From: Saccharopolyspora rosea
GTDB taxonomy: Bacteria > Actinomycetota > Actinomycetes > Mycobacteriales > Pseudonocardiaceae
Assembly: GCF_025643595.1 (NCBI RefSeq)
Contig: NZ_CP102826.1
Location: 3,224,001-3,288,000, forward strand
Direction: 5' to 3'
DNA: 64,000 nt
The notes below the pieces were generated by a model, which saw nothing but the letters and a program-made list of their open reading frames with translations, was not told where the DNA came from and did no database searches. Made by a program: the position numbers and the translations under genes. Of this stretch, positions 50,911 to 63,696 are shown one piece after another. Position 1 is the stretch's first letter. The number at the start of each line of letters is the position of its first letter.

Positions 50911-52253
<1,343 letters not shown>

Positions 52254-52257
<4 letters not shown>

Positions 52258-52490
52258 GGGGTCACCTCCACGATGTCCTCCCCGGCCGAGACCTCCTCGC
52301 CGTCGTCGACGAGGAACCGCGCCACGGTGCCCGCCGCGTCCGCCTTGACCTCGTTGAACGTCTTCATCACCTCGATCAGCGCGATCGTCTGCCCCGCGAC
52401 GACCGCAGCTCCCTCGGTGACGTAGGGCTCGGCGTCCGGGGACGAGCGGTGGTACAGCACGCCGGGCATCGGGGCCTTGATGGTGGGCAT
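52254..52490 (-). CDS. Short biotin carboxyl carrier protein
   Basis: A 78-residue biotinyl domain without the long Pro/Ala linker of AccB. The biotin lysine is K43 in LIEVMKTFNEV, the classic VMK. The opening IKAPMPGVLYHRSSPDAEPYV and the closing GEEVSAGEDIVEV match the half-barrel. ATG 52490 is used. It sits 26 bp after pxpC and overlaps the biotin carboxylase start. It is probably loaded by that enzyme and delivers a carboxyl group to a carboxyltransferase partner. Confidence 0.9.
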
Positions 52491-52516: not shown

Positions 52517-53485
52517 TCAGGACACCAGCGCGGCGCGCACCCGGTCCAGCCGGTCGCGCCGCCGACGCCGCGCGGCCAGCGCGGCCTGCAGGTCGACCGG
52601 GCGGAACCGCACCCGGTCCCCGGTGCGGGCCTGGCCGAAGACGTCGCGGTCGACCGAGATGACCGTGGCGATCGTGGCGTAGCCACCCGCGGTGACCGCG
52701 TCGTTGAGCAGCACGATCGGCTCGTCCCCGCCCGGCACCTGCACCGAACCCAGCGGGTAGCCGAGGTCGACGACGTTGGCCGGATCGCTGCCCGCCCCGG
52801 CCGGCTGCTCGCGTTCGACGAAGTCCAACCGGCCACCGCGCAACCGGTAGCCGACCCGGTCGGCGTCCTTGGTGACCTTCCACGACGTGTCCAGGAACGA
52901 CCGCAACGCCTCCGCGGTCAGCCGGTAGGAGCACAACCCCACCACCGCGCGCACCTGAGCCTCGGAGGTCAGGACGGGACGCAGGTCCTCGGGCACGACC
53001 GCCCCGACCCGCGCCGCACCCGGGTCGTCGCCGAGCGGGAGCCGGTCGCCCTCGGCGAGCTTGCTGCCACCGATCCCGGTCAGCGTGTACGTCGACCGCG
53101 ACCCGAGGTAGGCGGGGATGGCGATGCCGCCGCTGACCGCCACGTACAGCCGCGCACCCGCGGTCAGCATCCCGAAACCGAGCACGTCGCCGGCCCGCAC
53201 CGGCACCGCCCGCCACTGCTCGACCGGCTCGCCGTTGACCGTCACCGGCGCGCTCGCCCCGGTGACCGCCACGACGCGGTCGTCGGTGAACTCCACCTCG
53301 GGCCCGATGTAGGTGGCCTCCAGCACGGCCGCCCCGTCGGGGTTGCCGACCAGCAGGTTCGCCACCGCGTAGGAGTACTGGTCCATCGCCCCGGACGGGG
53401 GCAGGCCGATGTCGTAGTAGCCGTCGCGCCCGGCGTCCTGCACGGTCGTGGACAACCCTCCGGAGCGCACGATCAGCTCGCTCAC
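52517..53485 (-). CDS. pxpC: PxpC/KipA-family 5-oxoprolinase subunit (carboxyltransferase fold)
   Basis: A 322-residue cyclophilin-like-fold protein of the biotin-dependent carboxyltransferase (CT-D/KipA) type. It has LSTTVQDAGRDGYYDIGLPPSGAMD, ANLLVGNPDGAAVLEAT, VSGGIAIPAYLGSRSTYT and the ending GGDEPIVLLNDAVTAGGYATIATV. That last block is of PxpC, not urea-carboxylase, type. With PxpA and PxpB it forms the ATP-dependent 5-oxoprolinase that turns 5-oxoproline to glutamate. GTG 53485 overlaps the pxpB stop. Linkage to biotin carboxylase genes is notable, because 5-oxoprolinase itself is not known to need biotin. Confidence 0.87.
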   Translation of the reverse strand: MSELIVRSGGLSTTVQDAGRDGYYDIGLPPSGAMDQYSYAVANLLVGNPDGAAVLEATYIGPEVEFTDDRVVAVTGASAPVTVNGEPVEQWRAVPVRAGDVLGFGMLTAGARLYVAVSGGIAIPAYLGSRSTYTLTGIGGSKLAEGDRLPLGDDPGAARVGAVVPEDLRPVLTSEAQVRAVVGLCSYRLTAEALRSFLDTSWKVTKDADRVGYRLRGGRLDFVEREQPAGAGSDPANVVDLGYPLGSVQVPGGDEPIVLLNDAVTAGGYATIATVISVDRDVFGQARTGDRVRFRPVDLQAALAARRRRRDRLDRVRAALVS

Positions 53486-54384
53486 CGGTACAACACCTCC
53501 AGCAGCTCGCTGTTGACCGCGTCCGGGTCGGCCAGGAACTCGGCCGGGCTGAACTCGACCTCGCGGACGCGGTAGCGGAACGTGCCGCTGTCCACTTCGG
53601 ACCGCACCTGGTCGTACTCGGCCCGGTCGACCGCCCGGTACCGCAGGATGTCGCCGGGACGCGGGAACGCGATGCCGGAGGCGAAGTCCGGCAACCGCTG
53701 CTGCAGGTCGAACACCGGTGCCGGGGCGATCCCGAACAGCTGGTAGCCCCCGGCCCCGCGCACCGGGTACACCACGGCGAACGCACCGCCGAACCCGAAC
53801 GCCCGCTCCGGGGTGTCGGTGCGCGGCCGCACGTACTTGGGCACCTCGATCTGCCGCTGCGGTGGCACCATCTGGTAGCAGAACGGCAGACCCGGCACGA
53901 ACCCGATCATGGTGACCAGGTAGGGGGCACCGGACAGCGCCTCGACGAGCTCGTCGACACCGGCGAAACCGTTGATCCGCGCCGCGTACTCCAGGTCGGT
54001 GGCCTGCGGGTCCTGGTGCCGGTCGCGGAACCGCAGCAGCGTCTCGCGGGTCCACGGGTCGTCGAACAGCACCGGCACGTCGACCACCCGCGTGGGCAGC
54101 ACGTAGTCGGCGGGCAGCGACCCGGCCGAGCGCTCCAGCTCCCGCAGGTGCTCGACCAGCTCCACCGGGTCCAGCCGGTCCGGGTCCACCCGGATCATGT
54201 ACGAGGCGTTGGACGGGCAGATGTCGACCACCCCGTCGAGGCCCTCCTCGCGCAGGGCCGCGGTGATGGTCATGGCCTTGAAGTTCGCCTCCAGGCTCAT
54301 CGCCTGGTCGATCTCGACGAACACGAACTCGTCGGCGCCGTGGTCATAACGCGCCGGTGGCAGCGCGAGTGGTGTCGTGCCCAC
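53482..54384 (-). CDS. pxpB: PxpB/KipI-family 5-oxoprolinase subunit
   Basis: A 300-residue KipI-like (CT-C) protein. After an N-terminal ~80 residues comes VPVLFDDPWTRETLL, APYLVTMIGFVPGLPFCYQM, EVPKYVRPRTDTPERAFGFGGAFAVVYPV and GGYQLFGIAPAPVFD, the family's conserved core. GTG 54384 is chosen because CAGGAGGGAG lies 5 nt upstream; GTG 54390 is too close to it. It is first of a four-gene operon (pxpB-pxpC-BCCP-BC). A 194-bp gap separates it from pxpA on the other strand, where both promoters must lie. Confidence 0.87.
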   Translation of the reverse strand: MGTTPLALPPARYDHGADEFVFVEIDQAMSLEANFKAMTITAALREEGLDGVVDICPSNASYMIRVDPDRLDPVELVEHLRELERSAGSLPADYVLPTRVVDVPVLFDDPWTRETLLRFRDRHQDPQATDLEYAARINGFAGVDELVEALSGAPYLVTMIGFVPGLPFCYQMVPPQRQIEVPKYVRPRTDTPERAFGFGGAFAVVYPVRGAGGYQLFGIAPAPVFDLQQRLPDFASGIAFPRPGDILRYRAVDRAEYDQVRSEVDSGTFRYRVREVEFSPAEFLADPDAVNSELLEVLYR

Positions 54385-54578
54385 GAGCACTCCCTCCTGC
54401 CGATCGAACGTCGCTGCCACCTTTGGGGGTGAACGCGGTCGGCCGCCAGTGGCCCGCTTGGCCAACAACACCCCGCCGATGTGGCCGAACCGCTGATATC
54501 GACTCCTCCCGGCCGCGCCCACGGTGTTCTCGACGCCCCTGCGGGGCACGCCGCCGGACACGTCGAAGGGAAGGTGCC

Positions 54579-55349
54579 GTGACCACGACCATCGATCTCA
54601 ACGCCGACGCCGGGGAGAGCTTCGGGCGCTGGCGGCTCGGCGACGACGACCGGCTGTTCCCGCAGGTGTCCTCGGTCAACGTCGCCTGCGGCTGGCACGC
54701 CGGCGACCCCGCGACGATGCGCCGCTCGGTCGAGCTGGCCCGCACCCACGACGTCGCGCTGGGCGCCCACCCCGGCTTCCCCGACCTGGCCGGGTTCGGC
54801 CGCCGCCCCATCGGGTTCAGCCCGCAGCAGGCCGCCGACGCCTGCCTGTACCAGCTCGGAGCGCTGCGGGCCTTCGCCGACGCGCAGGGCGTGCCCGTCA
54901 CGCACGTCAAACCGCACGGCGCCTTCTACGGGCTGACCGCGCGCGACGGCGAGGTCGCCGCGGCGGTGGGCGAGGCGGTGCGCGCGGTCGACCCCGATCT
55001 GATCGTCGTGCTGCTGGCCGGGCCGACCGCCGACGCCGTGGCCGCGCGCGGCGTTCGCGTCGCGCGGGAAGCGTTCGCCGACCTCGACTACCGCGACGAC
55101 GGCACGATCATCATCGAACCCGACCCGGTGGCCAAGGACCCGCACGCCTGCGCCGAGCAGGCCATGGCGATCCTCGCCGGCGAGGTCACCTCCACCGAGG
55201 GGCACGCCGTGCCGGTGCGCGCCGACTCGATCTGCCTGCACGGCGACCGTCCCAACGCCGTGGACATCGCCCGTGCGATCCGCCAGCGGTTCGCCGCCGA
55301 AGGCGTCGAGGTCGCACGCATGGCGCGGGTGCTGGCCCGCCGCGGCTAG
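54579..55349 (+). CDS. pxpA: 5-oxoprolinase subunit A (LamB/YcsF family)
   Basis: A 256-residue LamB/YcsF protein. It opens DLNADAGESFGRW, with NVACGWHAGDPATMR, GAHPGFPDLAGFGRR, HVKPHGAFYG and a late HGDRPNAVDIARAIR, all standard. It binds and helps open 5-oxoproline in the PxpABC complex. GTG 54579 follows GAAGGGAAGG. It is divergent from pxpB, so the complex is made from both strands of one promoter region. Intact by motif and length. Confidence 0.92.
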   Translation: MTTTIDLNADAGESFGRWRLGDDDRLFPQVSSVNVACGWHAGDPATMRRSVELARTHDVALGAHPGFPDLAGFGRRPIGFSPQQAADACLYQLGALRAFADAQGVPVTHVKPHGAFYGLTARDGEVAAAVGEAVRAVDPDLIVVLLAGPTADAVAARGVRVAREAFADLDYRDDGTIIIEPDPVAKDPHACAEQAMAILAGEVTSTEGHAVPVRADSICLHGDRPNAVDIARAIRQRFAAEGVEVARMARVLARRG

Positions 55350-55484: not shown

Positions 55485-56003
55485 TCAGTGCTTCAGCGCG
55501 AACTTGAGGGCGACGATCAGCAGGCCGATCACGAGGTTGACCGCGTCGGTGAGGGCCACTTGGCGCCAGGCGGCGCCTGCGCGCCGCGCGGCTGCGGCTG
55601 CCCAGCCCATCTGGCTGATCAGAGCGACGGCGAGGGCGAGCCAGGCGGTGCCCTGGACGTCGAGGCCCAGCAGGGGGCTGACGAGCACGGCGACCGTGGA
55701 AGGCACGGCGGCCTCCACGATGGGCCACTCCTCACGGCACACGTGCAGCACGGTTGCTCTGTTCAGGCAGCGCTGCGCCATGCGTGCGCCGAAGAGCTGG
55801 GCGTGGACGTGCGCGAGCCAGAAGACGATCCCGGTGGCCATCAGCAGCAACGCCAGCTCCAGCCTCGGGAAGGCTCCGAGCGTACTGGCTCCGACCACGA
55901 CGGAGGCGGCGAGCAGCGACCCGTAGACGCCACCGGTGTAGTCGGCGTGAGCTCGGCGTTCCACCCTCCACGCCCGGGCCTGCGCCCTGAACTTCTCCAG
56001 CAT
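55485..56003 (-). CDS. Small four-helix membrane protein
   Basis: A 172-residue protein of unknown function with about four membrane helices: VYGSLLAASVVVGAST, LALLLMATGIVFWLAHVHAQLF, STVAVLVSPLLGLDVQ and TAWLALAVALISQMGWAAAA, with a final VIGLLIVALKFAL. The N-terminus is basic (KFRAQARAWRVERR). ATG 56003 follows GGGAG. It is divergent from the DyP operon. It resembles uncharacterised membrane proteins of streptomycetes, but I cannot name the family. Confidence 0.7.
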   Translation of the reverse strand: MLEKFRAQARAWRVERRAHADYTGGVYGSLLAASVVVGASTLGAFPRLELALLLMATGIVFWLAHVHAQLFGARMAQRCLNRATVLHVCREEWPIVEAAVPSTVAVLVSPLLGLDVQGTAWLALAVALISQMGWAAAAARRAGAAWRQVALTDAVNLVIGLLIVALKFALKH

Positions 56004-56286
56004 CCTTCGCTCCCGAGGTCAGCGAACCGGACACGCGACGTCCACCGTCGTGCCGGTCTTCGCGCGGCCGGGACATTTCGGTCCGGAAAGCCGGGCCACC
56101 TCCGCAATCCTCGTCAACCAGTGGTGCAGCCGCCGCCCAGCGCTTTCGCGCAGGTCAGCAGCCCACCACACGCCGGTCGCGGTGCGACGGGACGCACGTG
56201 CCCTTCTCCCCGCTCGGCAGGCGCGCCCAGTGATGGGGCGCGAGGATGGAATCGTCCCGGCCCAGTGGCTGGCGGGAGGAACGGAC

Positions 56287-56820
56287 ATGGAGATCAAGCC
56301 GCAGGCGGTCGTCCTCCCCAAGGAGACGGATCATCTCGAACAGGGGAAGTACGGGCCTGTTTTCCCGAGGACTCCGGCGTGCTACGGGTTCACCATCGTC
56401 GCGCGGGTCAAGCCCGGGCACGCCGATGCGATGCGCCAGTACGGCTACGCGCTGGCCGAGGCGCTGGAACAGGATCCGTACCTGCTGGCGCCGTTGAAGC
56501 TGCACTACCTGCGCTGGGTCCTCTTCGACGACGACACGCGCTTCATGTACCAGGGGATCTTCGACACCGACTTCGACAAGTACACCGAGGACGCCGTCGC
56601 GCTGTTCTCGAAGGCGGGCGTGAGCACGGCGTTCGAGCACCTGGAGGGGTTCCCGGAGGACTGGCGGACCAATCCGGAGGCGTTCGTCAGGTTCGTCCGC
56701 GAGCACCACTGTCCGAGCTTCATCGAGTACGGGGAGTATCCGTACGTGACGGCGGACGAGATCAAGAAGGCTTTGCGGATCAAGAGCGCTCTATCCGAGA
56801 TGCTCGACCAGATGCAGTGA
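56287..56820 (+). CDS. Unrecognised 177-residue protein of the DyP operon
   Basis: I do not recognise a named family. It begins MEIKPQAVVLPKETDHLE, then has a ferredoxin-like-fold pattern: FTIVARVKPGHADAMRQYGY, HYLRWVLFDDDTRFMYQGIFD and DFDKYTEDAVALFS, with FEHLEGFPEDWR and a charged C-terminal helix. That alternation of strand and helix suggests a dimeric alpha/beta-barrel relative, the fold also used by DyP. ATG 56287 follows GGGAGG. It is first in a four-gene run, 16 bp before the next gene. A helper or partner of the peroxidase is a fair guess. Confidence 0.65.
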   Translation: MEIKPQAVVLPKETDHLEQGKYGPVFPRTPACYGFTIVARVKPGHADAMRQYGYALAEALEQDPYLLAPLKLHYLRWVLFDDDTRFMYQGIFDTDFDKYTEDAVALFSKAGVSTAFEHLEGFPEDWRTNPEAFVRFVREHHCPSFIEYGEYPYVTADEIKKALRIKSALSEMLDQMQ

Positions 56821-56836
56821 GGCTGGGAGCTGGGCG

Positions 56837-57847
56837 ATGAGCGAGACCAACACAGCGCGCGTCTACAACCAGCGGCACCTTCCCCGCAAGTACACCCCTG
56901 CCGGGCGGCGCGTGAGCATCTACGTCTCGTGGAGCTACCCGGCCGAGGCGGGCCGCAACGCCGCCGAGCTGGACAACCGGTTCTCCACCCTGACGGAGGT
57001 GCGTCGGGTGGCGTGGCCGGCCTACGAGGACCCGAAGTGGTCGGACCCCTATCGGTTCCAGCAGGGCATCGCGGGCTCGCTGGAGTTGTTCTTCTGGGCC
57101 TGGGTGGCGTTCCAGGACTTCGCCGAGGAGGTCACCGGGCATGCCGTCCCGGTCTACCAGCGCATCGACCAGGCCGGTTTCCCCACTCCGCTCGATGAAC
57201 GGGTACTCGACGACACCGACGTCCTGTTCGTTTTCGGACTGGACCACATGATCACCGGGCAGGAGGCGCAGCCGGAGGAGATCGAGGCGCTGCGGGCCTT
57301 CCTCGCCCGGGAGGACGCCCGCCTGGTGCTGGGGCCCCATCACGATGTCGGTGCGTCGGACGATCTGTCGGTGCGGGAGGTGGAGTACCGCCACCACGGC
57401 GATCCCCTGGTGCCTCGCCAGCAGCGGTTCGCCACCTACGTCAGGGATTTGATGAAGGGCTTGGGTGTCCCGGTCGTCAACCGGTACGGGCTGCGTCCCG
57501 CCACCGGTGAGGACAACCGGATCGCTCCGCTGTCGACCGTCCGGGATCTGGACGAGAAGGGGTGGCTGAACGGGGTCACGAACTTCAACTTCCACATGCA
57601 CCTGCCGCACTACGCGGTGACGACAGACGAGCCGAAGGCCATCCGCGTGCTGGCCCGGCAGCCGATCGACACCTCCCGGCCCCATCCGTTCACCGAGGAC
57701 GGGAACGCCGAGTTCAACATGTTCCTGTGGATGCCCCCGAGCGGTGACCGCGCGGCCGACGTGCTGCTGGCCGACTCCACGATCTTCAGCACCCTCTTCG
57801 GAGCCGACGACAGCCTGCGGAACTTCTGGCGCAACCTCGTTACGTAG
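56837..57847 (+). CDS. Unrecognised 336-residue protein of the DyP operon
   Basis: No known family is evident. The start has an Arg/Tyr-rich stretch (VYNQRHLPRKYTPAGRRVSIYVSWSYP-like, with SWSYPAEAGRN). A mid region, VLFVFGLDHMITGQEAQPEEIEALRAFLAREDARLVLGPHHDVG, reads like the ThuA or glutamine-amidotransferase-like flavodoxin fold, where a gene product senses or binds a small molecule. Later NFNFHMHLPHYAV and RPHPFTEDGNAEFNMFLW hold several histidines. There is no signal peptide. It lies between the 177-residue gene and the DyP gene, with only 16 bp and 2 bp gaps. Confidence 0.65.
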   Translation: MSETNTARVYNQRHLPRKYTPAGRRVSIYVSWSYPAEAGRNAAELDNRFSTLTEVRRVAWPAYEDPKWSDPYRFQQGIAGSLELFFWAWVAFQDFAEEVTGHAVPVYQRIDQAGFPTPLDERVLDDTDVLFVFGLDHMITGQEAQPEEIEALRAFLAREDARLVLGPHHDVGASDDLSVREVEYRHHGDPLVPRQQRFATYVRDLMKGLGVPVVNRYGLRPATGEDNRIAPLSTVRDLDEKGWLNGVTNFNFHMHLPHYAVTTDEPKAIRVLARQPIDTSRPHPFTEDGNAEFNMFLWMPPSGDRAADVLLADSTIFSTLFGADDSLRNFWRNLVT

Positions 57848-57849
57848 CG

Positions 57850-59202
57850 ATGCCGCAGGAGGCCGACGTGAGCGCAGCCACGGACGTCACACTGGAACTC
57901 CACGACATCCAACGCGGGGTCCTCAGCCCCCGCCCCACCCCGTACGCGGCCACGTACCTGGTCTTCCGCATCGACGACCCCTCCCAGGGCCGGGAATTGA
58001 TGCGGCGGGCGAGCGCGGCGGCGACCTCCGCCGCCGACACCTCCAGCCCCCTCGGGGACACCTGGGTCAGTGTCGCCGTCACCTACTGGGGCCTTAAGGC
58101 ACTGCGGGTGCCGCGCTGCTCGCTGGAGTCGTTCGCCTGGGAGTTCCGGCAGGGCATGGCCGCCCGCGCCAGGGCGCTGCGCGACGAGGGAGCGAGCAGC
58201 CCACAGCACTGGGAAGCACCGCTCGGCACGCGCGACGTCCATGTGGTGATCACGGCGATCGCCCCCGACCCCCCGCGTCTGGAGGCGGCCATCGACCGCG
58301 CCCGGCCCGCCTACGACCACCTGTCCGGCGTGACGGCGATCTGGCGACAGGACTGCTCCGCACTGCCCACCGAGAAGGAACACTTCGGCTACCTCGACGG
58401 CATCAGCCATCCGGCCGTCGAAGGCAGCGGCATCCCAGGGTCCAACAGGCTGGAAGCGCCTCTGAAGGGCGGGGAGTTCGTCCTCGGCTACCCGGATGAG
58501 ATCGGCGGTGTCCAGACGCCGCAGCCGGCCGCGCTGGGGCGCAACGGCAGCTACGCGGTCTTCCGCAAACTCCACCAGAACGTCGCCGCGTTCAGGCGCT
58601 ACCTGAGGGACAACTCCACCGGCGCCCAGGACGAGGAACTGATCGCGGCGAAGATCATGGGCCGCTGGCGCAGCGGTGCCCCGCTGGCGCTCGCTCCGCA
58701 GCACGACGACCCCGCACTCGGCACGGACTCCCGCCGCCGCAACACCTTCCTGTACGCGCAGGACGATCCGATGGGATTCACCACGCCGGGCGGCTGCCAC
58801 ATCCGCCGGGCCAATCCGCGCGATTCCGCGGTGGCCGGGGAGGTACGGCTGCACCGCATGATCCGGCGCGGCGCCGTCTACGGACCGCCGCTGCCCGAAG
58901 GCGTGCTCCAGGACGACGGAACCGACCGCGGCCTGATGTTCGCGTTCATCGGCGCCCACCTGGGGCGGCAGTTCGAGTTCGTCCAGTCGCAGTGGATGAA
59001 CGACGGCGTCTTCTTCGGGGCCGGCAACACGAAGGACCCCGTCGTCGGCGTCGTGGACGGACAGACCGGCTACACCATCCCCCGGCGGCCCGTGCGGCGC
59101 CGTCTCGCCCCGCTGCCCAGCTTCGTCGTCTCCCGTGGAGGCGAGTACTGCTTCCTGCCGAGCCTGAGCGCTCTGCGCTGGCTCGGGGACCTCCACGACT
59201 GA
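57850..59202 (+). CDS. DyP-type heme peroxidase
   Basis: A 450-residue dye-decolorizing peroxidase. The distal GxxDG motif is FGYLDGISHP near residue 180, with D183 as the acid-base. The proximal heme histidine is probably H335 in RLHRMIRRG. The tail GLMFAFIGAHLGRQFEFVQSQWMND is the usual late block. There is no Tat signal, so the enzyme is cytoplasmic or encapsulated. It would use H2O2 to oxidise an aromatic or sulfur compound. It follows the 336-residue gene by 2 bp and precedes a carrier gene by 18 bp, all in one run. Confidence 0.9.
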   Translation: MPQEADVSAATDVTLELHDIQRGVLSPRPTPYAATYLVFRIDDPSQGRELMRRASAAATSAADTSSPLGDTWVSVAVTYWGLKALRVPRCSLESFAWEFRQGMAARARALRDEGASSPQHWEAPLGTRDVHVVITAIAPDPPRLEAAIDRARPAYDHLSGVTAIWRQDCSALPTEKEHFGYLDGISHPAVEGSGIPGSNRLEAPLKGGEFVLGYPDEIGGVQTPQPAALGRNGSYAVFRKLHQNVAAFRRYLRDNSTGAQDEELIAAKIMGRWRSGAPLALAPQHDDPALGTDSRRRNTFLYAQDDPMGFTTPGGCHIRRANPRDSAVAGEVRLHRMIRRGAVYGPPLPEGVLQDDGTDRGLMFAFIGAHLGRQFEFVQSQWMNDGVFFGAGNTKDPVVGVVDGQTGYTIPRRPVRRRLAPLPSFVVSRGGEYCFLPSLSALRWLGDLHD

Positions 59203-59220
59203 CAGGGCGGGCAAAGCGCC

Positions 59221-60114
59221 ATGGACACCCCGCATCTCGTCCTCAACGCGGTCACCGTCATCTTCATCGCGGCCACCATGTTCGCCGCCGGCCTGCGCGC
59301 CACCATCCCCGCACTGCGCGGCGTCTTCGCCACTATTCCGCTTCTGCTGCTGGCGCTGATCGCCAACATGGTGGTCATCCCGCTGCTCGGCTGGGGCATC
59401 GCCGCGCTGTTCGGCCTTCCCTCGGCAGCCTTCATCGCCCTCGTCCTGATCGCCTCGTCCCCGGGCGGCCCCTTCGGGGCGAAACTGGCCGCGGTGCAGC
59501 AGGGCGACGTCGTCGCGGGCGCGGCGATGCAGGTGCTGCTCGCCTCCCTCGGCAGCCTCACCTTCGCCCCCACCGTCAACGCCATCCTCACCGCCGCCGA
59601 CACCGGCACCAAGGTCTCCCTCGACGTCGGCGCGCTGGTGCGGACGGTGGCACTGCTGCAACTCGTCCCGTTCGCTATCGGTCTGCTCCTGCGCCGTTAT
59701 GCCGAACCCACCGCACAGGCATGGCACCCCACGGCAGCCGCCGTCTCCAACATCACCTTCCTGATCGTGCTGGCAGGCATGCTGCTCGGCAGCTGGCGCG
59801 ATGTCGCCGACCTCTTCGGCTCACTCGCCCTGCTCGCCGGCTTCCTGCTCGCCGTGTTCGCCTTCGCCGTGGGAACTCTGCTGGCGACCGGCCCGACCCC
59901 GCGCCGCACCACCATGGGAGGCGTCGCCTCGGTACGCAACGCCGGCCCCGCCCTGGCCGCCATCGGCCTCGCCTTCGCCGACCAGCCCGCCGTCCTGGGC
60001 GCACTCGCCGCGATCCTCCTCAGCGGCCTCGCAGCAGCCCTCCCCATCGCCATACTGCTCAGCAGGCGCAGGAGGGCCCCTGACGCCGCCGCCCCGAGCA
60101 GGAACTCACCGTGA
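59221..60114 (+). CDS. Bile-acid:sodium symporter (BASS) family carrier
   Basis: A 297-residue membrane carrier with about nine helices. It has LNAVTVIFIAATMFAAGLR, VVIPLLGWGIAALFGL, the crossover-like ASSPGGPFGAKLAAV, NITFLIVLAGMLLGS and SVRNAGPALAAIGLAF, which are BASS landmarks. Such proteins move organic anions with sodium. Its place as fourth gene after two unknown proteins and a DyP peroxidase suggests that it imports the peroxidase substrate or exports its product. ATG 59221 is used; a GGGCGGG lies before it. Confidence 0.83.
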   Translation: MDTPHLVLNAVTVIFIAATMFAAGLRATIPALRGVFATIPLLLLALIANMVVIPLLGWGIAALFGLPSAAFIALVLIASSPGGPFGAKLAAVQQGDVVAGAAMQVLLASLGSLTFAPTVNAILTAADTGTKVSLDVGALVRTVALLQLVPFAIGLLLRRYAEPTAQAWHPTAAAVSNITFLIVLAGMLLGSWRDVADLFGSLALLAGFLLAVFAFAVGTLLATGPTPRRTTMGGVASVRNAGPALAAIGLAFADQPAVLGALAAILLSGLAAALPIAILLSRRRRAPDAAAPSRNSP

Positions 60115-60275: not shown

Positions 60276-61268
60276 TCACACCTCGTCCAGGTTGCGCGGG
60301 TCCAGCACGTACTCGACGTGCTCGGCCAGCGACTGCGCCCGGTCGAGGTCGACCTCCCGGAACCGCACCGTGTCCCGGCCCGGCCGCAGCTGGCCGACCC
60401 GCCACAGGCCGGCGTGCACCACGGTCGCCACGACCGCGAAACCACCGGACGTCGGCCCGTCCGGGCCGAGGATCATCGGCGTGTCCCCGTTGATGTGCAC
60501 CCCGCCCAGCGGGTATCCGCCGTCGAGCACGTTCGACGGGTGCGCCCCCGCCGCCCCGCCGTCCGCGCGCGACCAGGTGAACCGGTGCGGGCCGAGCCGG
60601 GTGACCACCCGGTCGGAGTTCAGGCCCACCCGCCAGGTCGCGGAGACGAACTCGGCCCAGTCGGCCGAGGTGAGGAAGTCGGGATCGGCGTGCGGGCCCC
60701 GCATCACCTCGATCTCCCAGTGCTCGGCGTAGGCCGGACGCAGCGCCTGCGGCACCCGCCGCCGACGCGGCCGGCGGACCGGTCGGGCGGTGAGCACGTC
60801 GTGGCGCACCAGCGCTCTGCCGTCCACGCCGCCGATCCCGGCCACCAGGTGGGTGGCGCGCGAACCGAGCACCTCGGGCACCTCGAAACCACCGGAGAAG
60901 GCCAGGTAGAGCCGAAATCCCGGGCCTTTGGCCGGGCCGCAGGTCAACCGGTCCCCGGCGCGCACGTCGAAGCCCTCCCACAGCGGCACCGGTTCGCCGT
61001 TGAGCACCGGTGCCGCACCGTCGGCGCCGCACAGCGCCACCACACCGTCGGCGGCCACGCGCGCGGCGAACCGGCCCATCGGGATCTCCAGCGCCGCCGC
61101 CCCGACATCGTTGCCGACCAGCAGGTTCGCCACCCGGAACGCGAGGTGGTCCACCGGCCCGGACGGGAAGAAACCACGGCGCTGCAGCCCGGGCCTGCCG
61201 GGCCAGTCCTGCACGGTGGTCTGCACACCCGGGTCGACGACCTCCAACGCCGCGACCGCACCGCTCAC
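60276..61268 (-). CDS. KipA-type subunit with urea-carboxylase-like carboxyltransferase motifs
   Basis: A 330-residue biotin-dependent carboxyltransferase-fold protein. It starts LEVVDPGVQTTVQDWPGRPG and has FFPSGPVDHLAFRVANLLVGN. The C-terminal half has MRGPHADPDFLTSADW, LNSDRVVTRLG, GAHPSNVLDGGYPLGGVHINGDTPMILGPDGPTSGGF and LWRVGQLRPG. These match the CT domain of urea carboxylases far better than PxpC, where GPDGP is replaced. GTG 61268 overlaps the stop of its KipI partner. It probably acts with that partner on a urea- or amide-type substrate. Confidence 0.83.
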   Translation of the reverse strand: MSGAVAALEVVDPGVQTTVQDWPGRPGLQRRGFFPSGPVDHLAFRVANLLVGNDVGAAALEIPMGRFAARVAADGVVALCGADGAAPVLNGEPVPLWEGFDVRAGDRLTCGPAKGPGFRLYLAFSGGFEVPEVLGSRATHLVAGIGGVDGRALVRHDVLTARPVRRPRRRRVPQALRPAYAEHWEIEVMRGPHADPDFLTSADWAEFVSATWRVGLNSDRVVTRLGPHRFTWSRADGGAAGAHPSNVLDGGYPLGGVHINGDTPMILGPDGPTSGGFAVVATVVHAGLWRVGQLRPGRDTVRFREVDLDRAQSLAEHVEYVLDPRNLDEV

Positions 61269-62170
61269 GGCGACCCCGCATCTGCGGCGAGGTGGTCGGC
61301 GACCGAGAACGCGACGTCGTCCACCTGGTACTCGTAGCGGTTGTCGAACACGTCCCGCCGCGCGGCCAGCAGCTCCTCCTCGGACACCCGCGTGAACCGC
61401 ACCTGATCGCCCGGCCGCACCAGGAACGGGTCGTCGTGGAAGATGTCGTGCCGCCCGTGCGGGTCGTAGACGGGCACCGTGCGGCCGAACAGCTGGAAGC
61501 TGCCGGGGGATTCGACGGGGAAGATCGCCACGCACCGCCCGCCGATGCCCACGGCCCCCTCGGCGGTCCACGCCCGGGTGGGGTTGTACTTCGGCGCGAA
61601 CAACCGCTGCCGGGCGCGCAGCGGGAACAGGAACGGCAGGCCGGGGAAGAACCCGATGAACGCGGTCCACCACGAGGTGGCGGTCACCGCCGCGAACAGC
61701 TCCTCCGGGTCGGACAGGCCGCTGCGCTCGACGATGTAGTCGATGTTGCTGCCGCCCCGGGTGTTGGGCGCGTCGCGGCGGATGGTGGCCGTGTAGCGGG
61801 CCACGGCCTCCCGCGAGGCGGAGTCGTCGAAGGCGATGGGCAGCGTGATGCGCCGTCCCGGCAGCACCAGCGACGAGACCGCGGGTTGGCGCGCGTGGAC
61901 GTCGTCGAGCGCGTCGAGCAGCGCGCGGCGCGTGGTGCGGGCCGGGTCGAAGCCCACCACGATCGACCGGAATCCCGGTGCGGCCTCGACGAGTCCGTCC
62001 GGTGGTTCGGCCAGCAGCGCGCCCAGCACGCCCAGCACGAAGAAGTTGACCCGCAGGTCCACATCGGACTCGCCGTATTCGACGAGGACCGCGCGGTCCC
62101 CGGCCTGCCGGTAGGTGATCGCCGGGCGTTCACCGTCGGCCTCGACGCGGCCGAGCACCGTCGCCGACAT
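61265..62170 (-). CDS. KipI-type subunit with urea-carboxylase-like motifs
   Basis: A 301-residue KipI-like protein. It contains TYRQAGDRAVLVEYGE, SSLVLPGRRITLPIAFDDSASRE, SWWTAFIGFFPGLPFLFP and KYNPTRAWTAEGAVGIGG, then GSFQLFGRTVPVYD. KYNP-R-W-T-GAVGIGG is a hallmark of the urea carboxylase CT domain, from memory. The PxpB at 53-54 kb has KYVRPRTDTPERAFGFGG at that position. ATG 62170 overlaps the PucR stop (TGATG), and the stop overlaps the KipA-like start, so three genes are coupled. Sequence divergence from pxpB rules out a recent duplicate. Confidence 0.83.
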   Translation of the reverse strand: MSATVLGRVEADGERPAITYRQAGDRAVLVEYGESDVDLRVNFFVLGVLGALLAEPPDGLVEAAPGFRSIVVGFDPARTTRRALLDALDDVHARQPAVSSLVLPGRRITLPIAFDDSASREAVARYTATIRRDAPNTRGGSNIDYIVERSGLSDPEELFAAVTATSWWTAFIGFFPGLPFLFPLRARQRLFAPKYNPTRAWTAEGAVGIGGRCVAIFPVESPGSFQLFGRTVPVYDPHGRHDIFHDDPFLVRPGDQVRFTRVSEEELLAARRDVFDNRYEYQVDDVAFSVADHLAADAGSP

Positions 62171-63696
62171 CACCGGTCACCGTCCTGGTCGCGCAGCCGC
62201 AGCGCCAGCCACAGCTCGGCGCGCGTGGTGGGGTCGTCCAGCGTGCAGTCGAGCAGGTCGGTGATCCGCCCGAGCCGGTAGCGCAGGGTGTGCCGGTGGA
62301 TGCCCAGCTCGGTGGACGAGGAGTCGACGTGGCCGTTGTGGCGCAGGAACACCCGCAGCGTGGAGATCAGGTCCAGTTTGGACCGCTGCGCGTGCCGGTC
62401 CAGCGGTTCCAGCAGTGCCGCGGCCCAGCCGCGCGCACTGGGGTTGTCCAGCTGCGCCAGCAGTCCGGCGGTGGTGACGTCCTCGGCGAGCACCAGCCGC
62501 GCGGTGTGCCCGGACGAGCCGAAATACACCGAGCGGGCCCGGCGCAGCGCGTCGGAGACCTCGTCGGCGCGCACACCCTCGGTCACCACCGCGCGGGCCT
62601 GCGGAACCCGGTGCAGCACCTCGTCGAGGGCCTGCAGATCGCCTTCGGCCACCGGCAGCAGGACCGCCGCGCTGTGGCTGTCGTACTGGGCGGTGAGCGC
62701 TCCGGCCTGCCGCAGGCCGTGCTGGTCCTCGGCCACCCGCAGCAGCCGCGGCAGCGCCTCCCGCGGGCATCCGACGAACGCCACCCGCAGCGGTGCCGGT
62801 GGCATGGGCACCCCGAGCGTGTCGGCCACCAGCTCGGCCAGGTCGGGGTGCCCGTCGACCGCGAGCCGCAGCACGGCGCGGCGTTCGCGCCGCTGCGCTT
62901 CCTGCTCGTCGAGTTCGCCCGCCAGGTCCAGGGCGAGTAGCCGGACCGCGCTGGTGAGCACCGATCGTTGCACCGGTGCCAGCGCGCTCGTCCGCCCGAT
63001 GGCGAGGTATCCGCCGAGGTGTCCGCGCACGTCGATCGGCAGCACGGCGACCTGGTCGCCGGCGACGGTCAGCGACGCCGCCTGCAGCCGGGTGCGCAGC
63101 CCGAGTGCGTCCAGGTCCATGCGGATCCGCGCCGCGTGGCCGCGGGCCCGCGCGGGAGCCGCGTGCCGGACCTGGCCGTCGGCGTCCAGCAGCAGGACCC
63201 ACGCGTCGAGCGCCTGCGCGAGCCGGCCGACGACCGCGCGCGACCCGGTGGTCGACAAGGCGGCGTGCACGAGGTCGGCCTGCGTCTCCAACGCGTGGGT
63301 GAGCAGCCGTTCCTGTCCGCGGGTGATCTCGGCGGCGACGGTCTCGCTGATCGCGATGAACGGTGTCGCGCGCGGCACGGCCAGCAGCGGCAGGTCGTGG
63401 TGGGCGGCGGCGTCGACGAGGTCGCGGGGCACCTCGGCGTGGGCGTGGCCGACGCCGAAGCCCAGCCCGGCGGCCTCGCGCGCGGTCAGCCGCCGGACGT
63501 AGTCGTCCCAGTGCCCGCCACGGGCCGGGAAGCCCTTGCCGGTGGTGAGCAGCAGTTCGCCGCCGGACAGGTGCGGGGTGGGGTCGTCGAGTTCGCTGAC
63601 GTGCACCCAGCGGATCTCGGGGTCCGCGCGGCCCGGTACCAGGGGGTGCAGGTGCAGTTCGCGTCGTTGCACCAGCCAGTGCAGGGTCGGGCGCAT
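62170..63696 (-). CDS. PucR-family transcriptional regulator
   Basis: A 508-residue PucR protein. It has the N-terminal PucR sensing domain (WVHVSELDDPTPHLSGGELLLTTG, AEVPRDLVDAAAHHDLPLLAVPRATPF), a middle region, and the C-terminal HTH_30 (LRVFLRHNGHVDSSSTELGIHRHTLRYRLGRITDLL). The family often controls purine, uracil, urea and other nitrogen-source pathways. ATG 63696 follows GGGGAGG by 4 nt. It is the first gene of the run with the urea-carboxylase-like pair, and so probably its regulator. The 268-bp leader holds a CGTCAC-G-GTGACG repeat. Confidence 0.88.
   Translation of the reverse strand: MRPTLHWLVQRRELHLHPLVPGRADPEIRWVHVSELDDPTPHLSGGELLLTTGKGFPARGGHWDDYVRRLTAREAAGLGFGVGHAHAEVPRDLVDAAAHHDLPLLAVPRATPFIAISETVAAEITRGQERLLTHALETQADLVHAALSTTGSRAVVGRLAQALDAWVLLLDADGQVRHAAPARARGHAARIRMDLDALGLRTRLQAASLTVAGDQVAVLPIDVRGHLGGYLAIGRTSALAPVQRSVLTSAVRLLALDLAGELDEQEAQRRERRAVLRLAVDGHPDLAELVADTLGVPMPPAPLRVAFVGCPREALPRLLRVAEDQHGLRQAGALTAQYDSHSAAVLLPVAEGDLQALDEVLHRVPQARAVVTEGVRADEVSDALRRARSVYFGSSGHTARLVLAEDVTTAGLLAQLDNPSARGWAAALLEPLDRHAQRSKLDLISTLRVFLRHNGHVDSSSTELGIHRHTLRYRLGRITDLLDCTLDDPTTRAELWLALRLRDQDGDR

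Follow-up and report, generated by a model that had tools for sequence, protein, structure and literature searches.

A putative carboxyltransferase module of a split amide carboxylase in Saccharopolyspora rosea

The window analysed here, a 64,000-nucleotide stretch of Saccharopolyspora rosea DNA (bases 3,224,001-3,288,000 of the 6.56 Mb, one-contig host genome), contains a KipI-like and a KipA-like gene headed by a PucR-type regulator gene. The two encode a pair of stand-alone chains which, on sequence evidence, are carboxyltransferase (CT) subunits of the urea carboxylase type. We consider it reasonably likely that this pair forms the CT module of an N-carboxylase, split and biotin-dependent, for another amide, and that it borrows the biotin carboxylase (BC) and biotin carboxyl carrier protein (BCCP) of a second KipI/KipA operon in the window; the substrate would most likely be a lactam or a nucleobase-like cyclic amide. 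The proposal builds on the family assignment, a conserved lysine, the missing residues of urea and guanidine enzymes, the operon itself and a recurrent gene neighbourhood. Subunit sharing, N-carboxylation of a cyclic amide, hydrolysis by a PxpA-type enzyme and control by PucR are what we infer beyond these observations.

The PucR, KipI-like and KipA-like genes probably form a single translationally coupled operon, as each overlaps the next by four bases (GTGA). Gene boundaries were taken from our own simple open reading frame caller, and the profile scans used other starts for the KipA-like frame (from 61286), a PxpA-like gene of the window (from 54591) and the second KipI-like gene (longer). 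The gene coordinates and all four motifs quoted for the pair in an earlier, sequence-only reading of this DNA recurred in the sequence and the alignments, and the PucR regulator named there contains both a PucR N-terminal domain (PF07905, 93 bits) and a PucR helix-turn-helix domain (PF13556, 71 bits), each over its Pfam cut-off.

The assignment to urea carboxylase CT rather than to PxpBC, which that reading had proposed, is borne out by concordant profile scores, alignments and trees. Against NCBIfam models, the KipI-like chain scored 236 bits with urea carboxylase (TIGR02712) versus 63 bits with PxpB (cut-off 146), and the KipA-like chain 317 bits versus 152 bits with PxpC (cut-off 500). The pair reached none of these three cut-offs, that of TIGR02712 being set for the whole chain of 1201 positions, while the likeness to urea carboxylase at 236 and 317 bits is beyond chance. 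The broad model TIGR00724 (5-oxoprolinase/urea amidolyase family) was barely exceeded by the KipA-like chain (231.9 against a cut-off of 230.2). For both chains the best match in the PDB was the K. lactis urea carboxylase 3va7 (E 1e-43 for the KipI-like and 8e-59 for the KipA-like chain), which together with urea amidolyase 5i8i represents the closest solved relatives.

In a joint KipI+KipA tree of 78 of the 147 distinct pairs, four groups each formed one side of a branch: the clade of our pair (11 rows), the single-chain urea carboxylases (31), PxpBC (22) and the type of the second operon together with its kin (14). The pair's clade was sister to the single-chain urea carboxylases, not placed inside them. 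A bootstrap tree of 53 of those rows, for which four long-branch rows were dropped and 16 single-chain and 12 Pxp rows were kept, united the pair's clade with the CT of the single-chain urea and guanidine carboxylases with support of 100/99. The same split was recovered when each chain was analysed alone (92 for KipI, 99 for KipA); in the KipI-only tree the pair's clade itself received just 54, and long branches meet there too. The comparison with PxpBC and urea carboxylase CT, fixed beforehand as the test on which this assignment could fail, left the pair outside PxpBC, a joint grouping being rejected by the approximately unbiased (AU) test (p-AU 0.0007). Membership in PxpBC was rejected on the tree and this test; the PxpB and PxpC cut-offs were not reached either. 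Grouping with the second-operon type was likewise rejected (p 0.0007), and the CT pair of the second operon formed a separate clade with support of 100.

Active-site positions were inspected with residue numbers hand-counted on alignments with 3va7. Lys1605 of the K. lactis enzyme KlUA has been described as its most likely general base (PMC5770610); its counterpart is Lys195 of the KipI-like chain, which is arginine in the PxpB rows shown. Among the stand-alone homologues, for which residues were counted in the best 120 of 680 KipI-like sequences, the surrounding KYNP motif is present in 116, a count biased by the search, since homologues were found by shared words and most of the fused enzymes by a KYNP-containing pattern, and it is absent from the other four, three of which read RYNP; bias and exceptions alike belong with the points against our proposal weighed below. 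The three homologues with RYNP instead of the catalytic lysine are P0033, P0041 and P0042.

The substrate-related positions gave a different picture. In one account, enzymes had to have Asp at K. lactis position 1584 to count as guanidine carboxylases, and were distinguished from urea carboxylases by Asp at position 1330 (PMC11410670); for urea carboxylases a review mentions Asn at a position given without a number (PMC12186494). In our pair, the Asp at KlUA 1584 falls into an alignment gap; its motif occurs in 0 of the 120 stand-alone homologues versus 85 of 85 fused enzymes (a set that excludes the fused PxpB-PxpC protein L227 and stems mostly from the best 80 of 588 pattern matches), and the stand-alone proteins mostly carry a loop of the FxPG type in its place. 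Position 1330 is His in the pair, neither Asn nor Asp. Over 30 of the 31 loci described below (L083 gave no residue) it is Leu in 16, Ile in seven, Asn in three, Ala in two and His and Thr in one each, with Asp in none, as compared with Asp in 66, Asn in 16, Met in two and Pro in one of the fused enzymes. The substrate pocket is probably altered, with a less polar lining in most members.

Because Asp1584 is missing, position 1330 is His, no allophanate hydrolase exceeds its cut-off and no DUF1989 protein is found, the pair is probably not a urea or guanidine enzyme. Allophanate hydrolase (TIGR02713) had 14 matches genome-wide, the best with 178 bits against a cut-off of 511, so that the earlier observation of none in the window extends to the whole genome; DUF1989 gave no match in the genome, and there was no fused urea carboxylase among the three places of the host genome matching the pair's KipI at E 1e-30. 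Of the urea/amide/guanidine-type activity first suggested, the residues therefore speak against urea and guanidine (D1584 motif in 0/120; at 1330, Asp in 0/30 and Asn in 3/30), and the amide part survives. The expectation that urea-carboxylase active-site residues would be conserved holds for the catalytic lysine and fails for Asp1584 and position 1330.

The pair was found in 25 of 390 same-family genomes, the host included; among 394 genomes sampled from the class, the host genome was the sole match at E 1e-65. Neighbourhoods were read in 31 loci, of which the 25 genomes contributed 26 and other records five (L080 and L251, which agree in length and layout and are apparently one contig, were counted once), with identities to relatives in other genera of up to 65% (KipI) and 68% (KipA). 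In 29 of the 31, a PucR homologue is no more than about 3 kb away from the pair, and the stretches read contain BC in 23 (one being a C-terminal fragment and several cut by the end of the stretch), PxpA in 23 and BCCP in 22.

Three settings recur. One has the order PucR-KipI-KipA-PxpA-second KipI-second KipA-BCCP-BC, compact in genomes G014, G774 and G686, with three genes interposed in G687, and with wider spacing between the two operons in the window and G695. In four of the 31 loci (L075, L251, L255, L256) both CT pairs are in the same cluster, which has one BC and one BCCP; a fifth, L081 from Actinomadura, has such a cluster lacking just the BC in the stretch, and in L075, L251 and L256 our pair directly abuts PxpA. 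In the second setting, comprising 15 loci, PucR stands beside a toluene-monooxygenase-like cluster (PF02332, TmoB and Rieske genes in L076), and all 15 have a BC and a BCCP of the second-operon type at a distance of up to about 10 kb, 14 of them also PxpA. L076, L077 and L082 contain a complete further CT pair akin to that of the second operon, which is represented by at least a partial KipI in L254, L258, L266, L269 and G723 (via L315), the other stretches ending earlier. The third setting, PucR-transporter-KipI-KipA, occurs in Streptomyces Ru72 (L079) and in G625 (L253). In Ru72 it continues with PxpA-BC-BCCP, with no second CT pair within 20.9 kb. Pfam gave no name for the Ru72 transporter and the PDB search one chance-level match, while it and two related transporters had weak NCS1/cytosine-permease matches in NCBIfam, far under the cut-off. 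In Leucobacter (L084), an ABC transporter and BC precede the pair and the start of PxpA, where the contig ends.

The presence of BC and BCCP as separate genes outside the pair's operon, as noted earlier, was confirmed at 7.8-9.4 kb from its end, alongside the second KipI/KipA pair. The further suggestion that both operons may share them gains support from the four single-cluster loci, from L081, from the spaced arrangement in the window and G695 and from the 15 loci with these genes within about 10 kb. The sequence-only reading had left unmentioned the gene for a PxpA-like hydrolase, which lies about 5 kb from the pair and diverges from the second operon (KipI-KipA-BCCP-BC, 54390-50911). The PxpA genes of these operons clustered separately from canonical PxpA (95), a result that carries a long-branch warning and includes one row filled to a third.

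We propose that the BC would carboxylate biotin on BCCP with ATP and bicarbonate, and that the carboxylated carrier would dock on the KipI/KipA pair, where Lys195 could act as base for transfer of the carboxyl group to an amide nitrogen; such a transfer is suggested by biotin carboxylase chemistry and the kept lysine. The PxpA-type hydrolase would then open the activated amide with release of CO2. The pair's operon encodes neither a BC, a BCCP nor a hydrolase; it probably relies on those of the second operon, at a distance of 5-9 kb, and PucR probably controls its expression. For 5-oxoprolinase, the assumption is that PxpBC phosphorylates the lactam, which PxpA then opens (PMC13274462); by analogy, the proposed route would be a biotin version of this logic, carboxylation followed by opening. 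A nucleobase-like lactam is loosely hinted at by the PucR family, by PxpA, by the NCS1-like transporter and, in one branch, by the ring hydroxylase. More speculatively, and as a possibility we advance only tentatively, two evolutionarily distinct CT pairs may share one BC, BCCP and PxpA in a modular, biotin-dependent lactam-opening system in which each CT pair sets the substrate, one branch following a toluene-monooxygenase-like enzyme that would make the lactam by hydroxylating an N-heteroaromatic ring.

Several further observations weigh against this proposal. BC is absent from the stretch read in eight of the 31 loci; four of these (L083, L252, L259 and L260) are at the end of a contig or on a short one, and L257/L316 has the second-type operon 9-15 kb off, but the absence in L078, L081 and L253 is without explanation. 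Genome G027 (L078) shows PucR and the pair alone, G625 (L253) has no BC adjacent to the pair, and G035 has PxpA and only a BC fragment beside it, the second-type CT pair and BCCP missing there. In the BC tree, the enzymes of L079 and L084 form a clade of their own apart from the second-operon BC. Close relatives of the L079 enzyme, judged by eye, sit with acyl-CoA CT-like genes elsewhere, and G027 has one alone. Finally, the host genome has ten BC domains in total, and a BC other than the window's has 54% identity (406 bits) to the Ru72 BC.

The L079/L084 clade stands, weakly (74), beside urea carboxylase BC, and the best-scoring match to the Ru72 operon BC in the host genome is the BC of the window (414 bits, 52%). 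A BC of the Streptomyces-operon type was sought in the host genome and rejected, its own matches showing 47-54% identity among the matches listed versus 55-66% in relatives. Since acyl-CoA CT-like genes also accompany similar BCs, the type of BC is no strict marker and pairing by it is loose. If the pair uses biotin here, its BC would be of another type than that of L079 and L084, and its recurrent position makes the neighbour the likeliest candidate.

It is unlikely, though a reading with some claim to attention, that the pair works without biotin, as assumed for PxpBC, by ATP-dependent phosphorylation or other activation of a lactam which PxpA then opens. The homology of KipI/KipA with PxpBC, the nearby PxpA, the FxPG loop replacing the Asp1584 loop as in PxpB and some loci without local BC fit this course, but the pair falls with urea carboxylase in the trees, has the KYNP lysine where PxpB has arginine, and is adjoined by an own BC in two loci, in one of them also by BCCP. 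We likewise doubt that the carboxybiotin comes from another carboxylase of the cell, such as that of the paralogous 2.79 Mb operon or an acyl-CoA carboxylase, rather than from the window neighbour. One of the ten BC domains does belong to that complete operon, and L078, L074 and L253 have the pair with no BCCP in the stretch; the BC, BCCP and PxpA genes near the pair in most of the 31 loci nevertheless make this quite improbable.

We consider it very unlikely that the pair represents a genuine CT of a urea or guanidine carboxylase, only split from BC and BCCP. Its sister position to these enzymes, the retained lysine and the urea-type Asn at 1330 in three of 30 loci (the window's not among them) would agree with it, whereas the Asp1584 motif (0/120), His at 1330 with Asp in none of 30, the lack of an allophanate hydrolase over the cut-off and of a DUF1989 match, and PxpA in the stretch in 23 of 31 loci would not. 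Hardly credible is a relic heading for loss: the distribution is patchy and about 5 kb separate the pair from its proposed partners here, but its frames are intact and overlapping, identities to other genera reach 65% and 68%, and the PucR gene is kept in 29 of 31 loci.

With urea and guanidine carboxylases (TIGR02712; 3va7, 5i8i) the pair shares homologous CT chains, the KYNP lysine, the nearest clade and motifs of the GD.P..L.PDGP and GQL.PG types. It differs in its stand-alone chains of 302 and 330 aa instead of a single BC+CT+BCCP chain, in the lack of Asp1584, in the mostly hydrophobic residue at 1330 among its relatives and in having PxpA as hydrolase neighbour in place of an allophanate hydrolase over the cut-off. 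The 5-oxoprolinase PxpABC resembles it in the two-gene KipI/KipA layout, the nearby PxpA-type hydrolase and the FxPG loop, whereas the pair belongs on the other side of the tree, has Lys for Arg and a KipI of 302 aa versus a PxpB of 203 aa (host) or 218 aa (E. coli). The second operon of the window and its copy at 2.79 Mb also have a split CT pair and would supply BC, BCCP and PxpA, but their CT pair is the separate clade described above and has a PxpC-like Gln at 1330.

Presumably lamA/lamB of Aspergillus offer an analogue, and we take the PA0492-PA0496 run of P. aeruginosa to hold LamB/YcsF and KipI/KipA genes. PMC5521831 lists the genes of this run as neighbours, among them a probable biotin-requiring enzyme as well as a probable subunit of acyl-CoA carboxylase, and gives no function in the passages concerned; the likeness is drawn by description only. 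Split CT pairs as such are already known, as a 2011 study of the biotin carboxylase family described, for some bacteria and archaea, two often-adjacent genes resembling the halves of urea carboxylase CT, the section concerned giving no functional data (PMC3199775). Among the matches listed, titles and abstracts of the open-licence literature contained none on a biotin-dependent, PxpA-linked carboxyltransferase, on the pair's clade or on CT sharing. The source names given among the best 120 of 680 KipI-like homologues are allophanate hydrolase subunit 1, urea carboxylase, 5-oxoprolinase subunit B or carboxyltransferase; the first two do not fit the residues and trees, and the third probably does not either. 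If true, our proposal would add a further chemistry to the KipI/KipA superfamily, in which interchangeable CT modules use biotin to open stable cyclic amides, would help to correct annotations and would provide a new route for the breakdown of lactams and N-heterocycles.

The features discussed are collected in Table 1. We take the EVMK motif of the BCCP to be its biotinylation site. Between the pair and PxpA lies a stretch of five genes, of which the three besides the peroxidase and transporter genes match neither Pfam nor NCBIfam.

Table 1 Coordinates of the CT pair, its regulator and other features of the window
Feature	Position	Strand	Remarks
PucR-type transcription regulator	62170-63696	-	508 aa; heads the operon; PF07905 and PF13556 over cut-off
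KipI-like CT subunit, urea-carboxylase-type	61265-62173	-	302 aa; putative catalytic Lys195 in KYNP; TIGR02712 236 bits
KipA-like CT subunit, urea-carboxylase-type	60276-61268	-	330 aa; His at KlUA 1330 position; TIGR02712 317 bits
Five-gene stretch between pair and PxpA	55485-60114	.	DyP-type peroxidase 57850-59202; SBF transporter 59221-60114
PxpA-like (LamB/YcsF) hydrolase	54579-55349	+	NF003814 305 bits, cut-off 226; groups apart from canonical PxpA; beside second operon
Second KipI-like CT subunit	53482-54390	-	profile scan; separate clade in tree
Second KipA-like CT subunit	52517-53485	-	separate clade in tree; no NCBIfam family at E 1e-5
BCCP	52254-52490	-	78 aa; EVMK; NF005457 107 bits, cut-off 87; proposed shared carrier
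BC subunit	50911-52257	-	448 aa; NF006367 644 bits, cut-off 597; BC tree; proposed shared BC

A few additional clusters were seen in relatives and beyond the window. In G014 (L308:6884-12737), a further CT lineage has a like layout of transporter, KipI, KipA, PxpA, BC and BCCP. Downstream of the pair in L262 (12377-16893) there are genes for an HpaB-type hydroxylase, a DUF2848 protein, a cupin and a carbon-nitrogen hydrolase, and a similar set was recognised by eye in L254, L259-L261 and L266 (Pfam was run on L262 and one L254 gene). Past the window, at 3.29 Mb and 6-8 kb beyond PucR, lies a VdcB/C/D-type hydroxyarylic acid decarboxylase cluster (L042:10752-13083); UbiX/UbiD-like genes were also noticed by eye in L076, and both occurrences are possibly due to chance.

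The host genome contains four CT_C_D (KipI) genes, namely those of our pair, of the second pair in the window, of the 2.79 Mb paralogue and of a canonical pxpABC operon at 1.36 Mb (L043), apart from the window. The 2.79 Mb locus (L041:7939-12363) is a complete paralogue of the second operon with PxpA, BCCP and BC, near genes for a carbon-nitrogen hydrolase, a PLP-dependent decarboxylase and a luciferase-like monooxygenase, and a KipI of its type is present at 73-79% identity in 17 of 21 other genomes of the genus.

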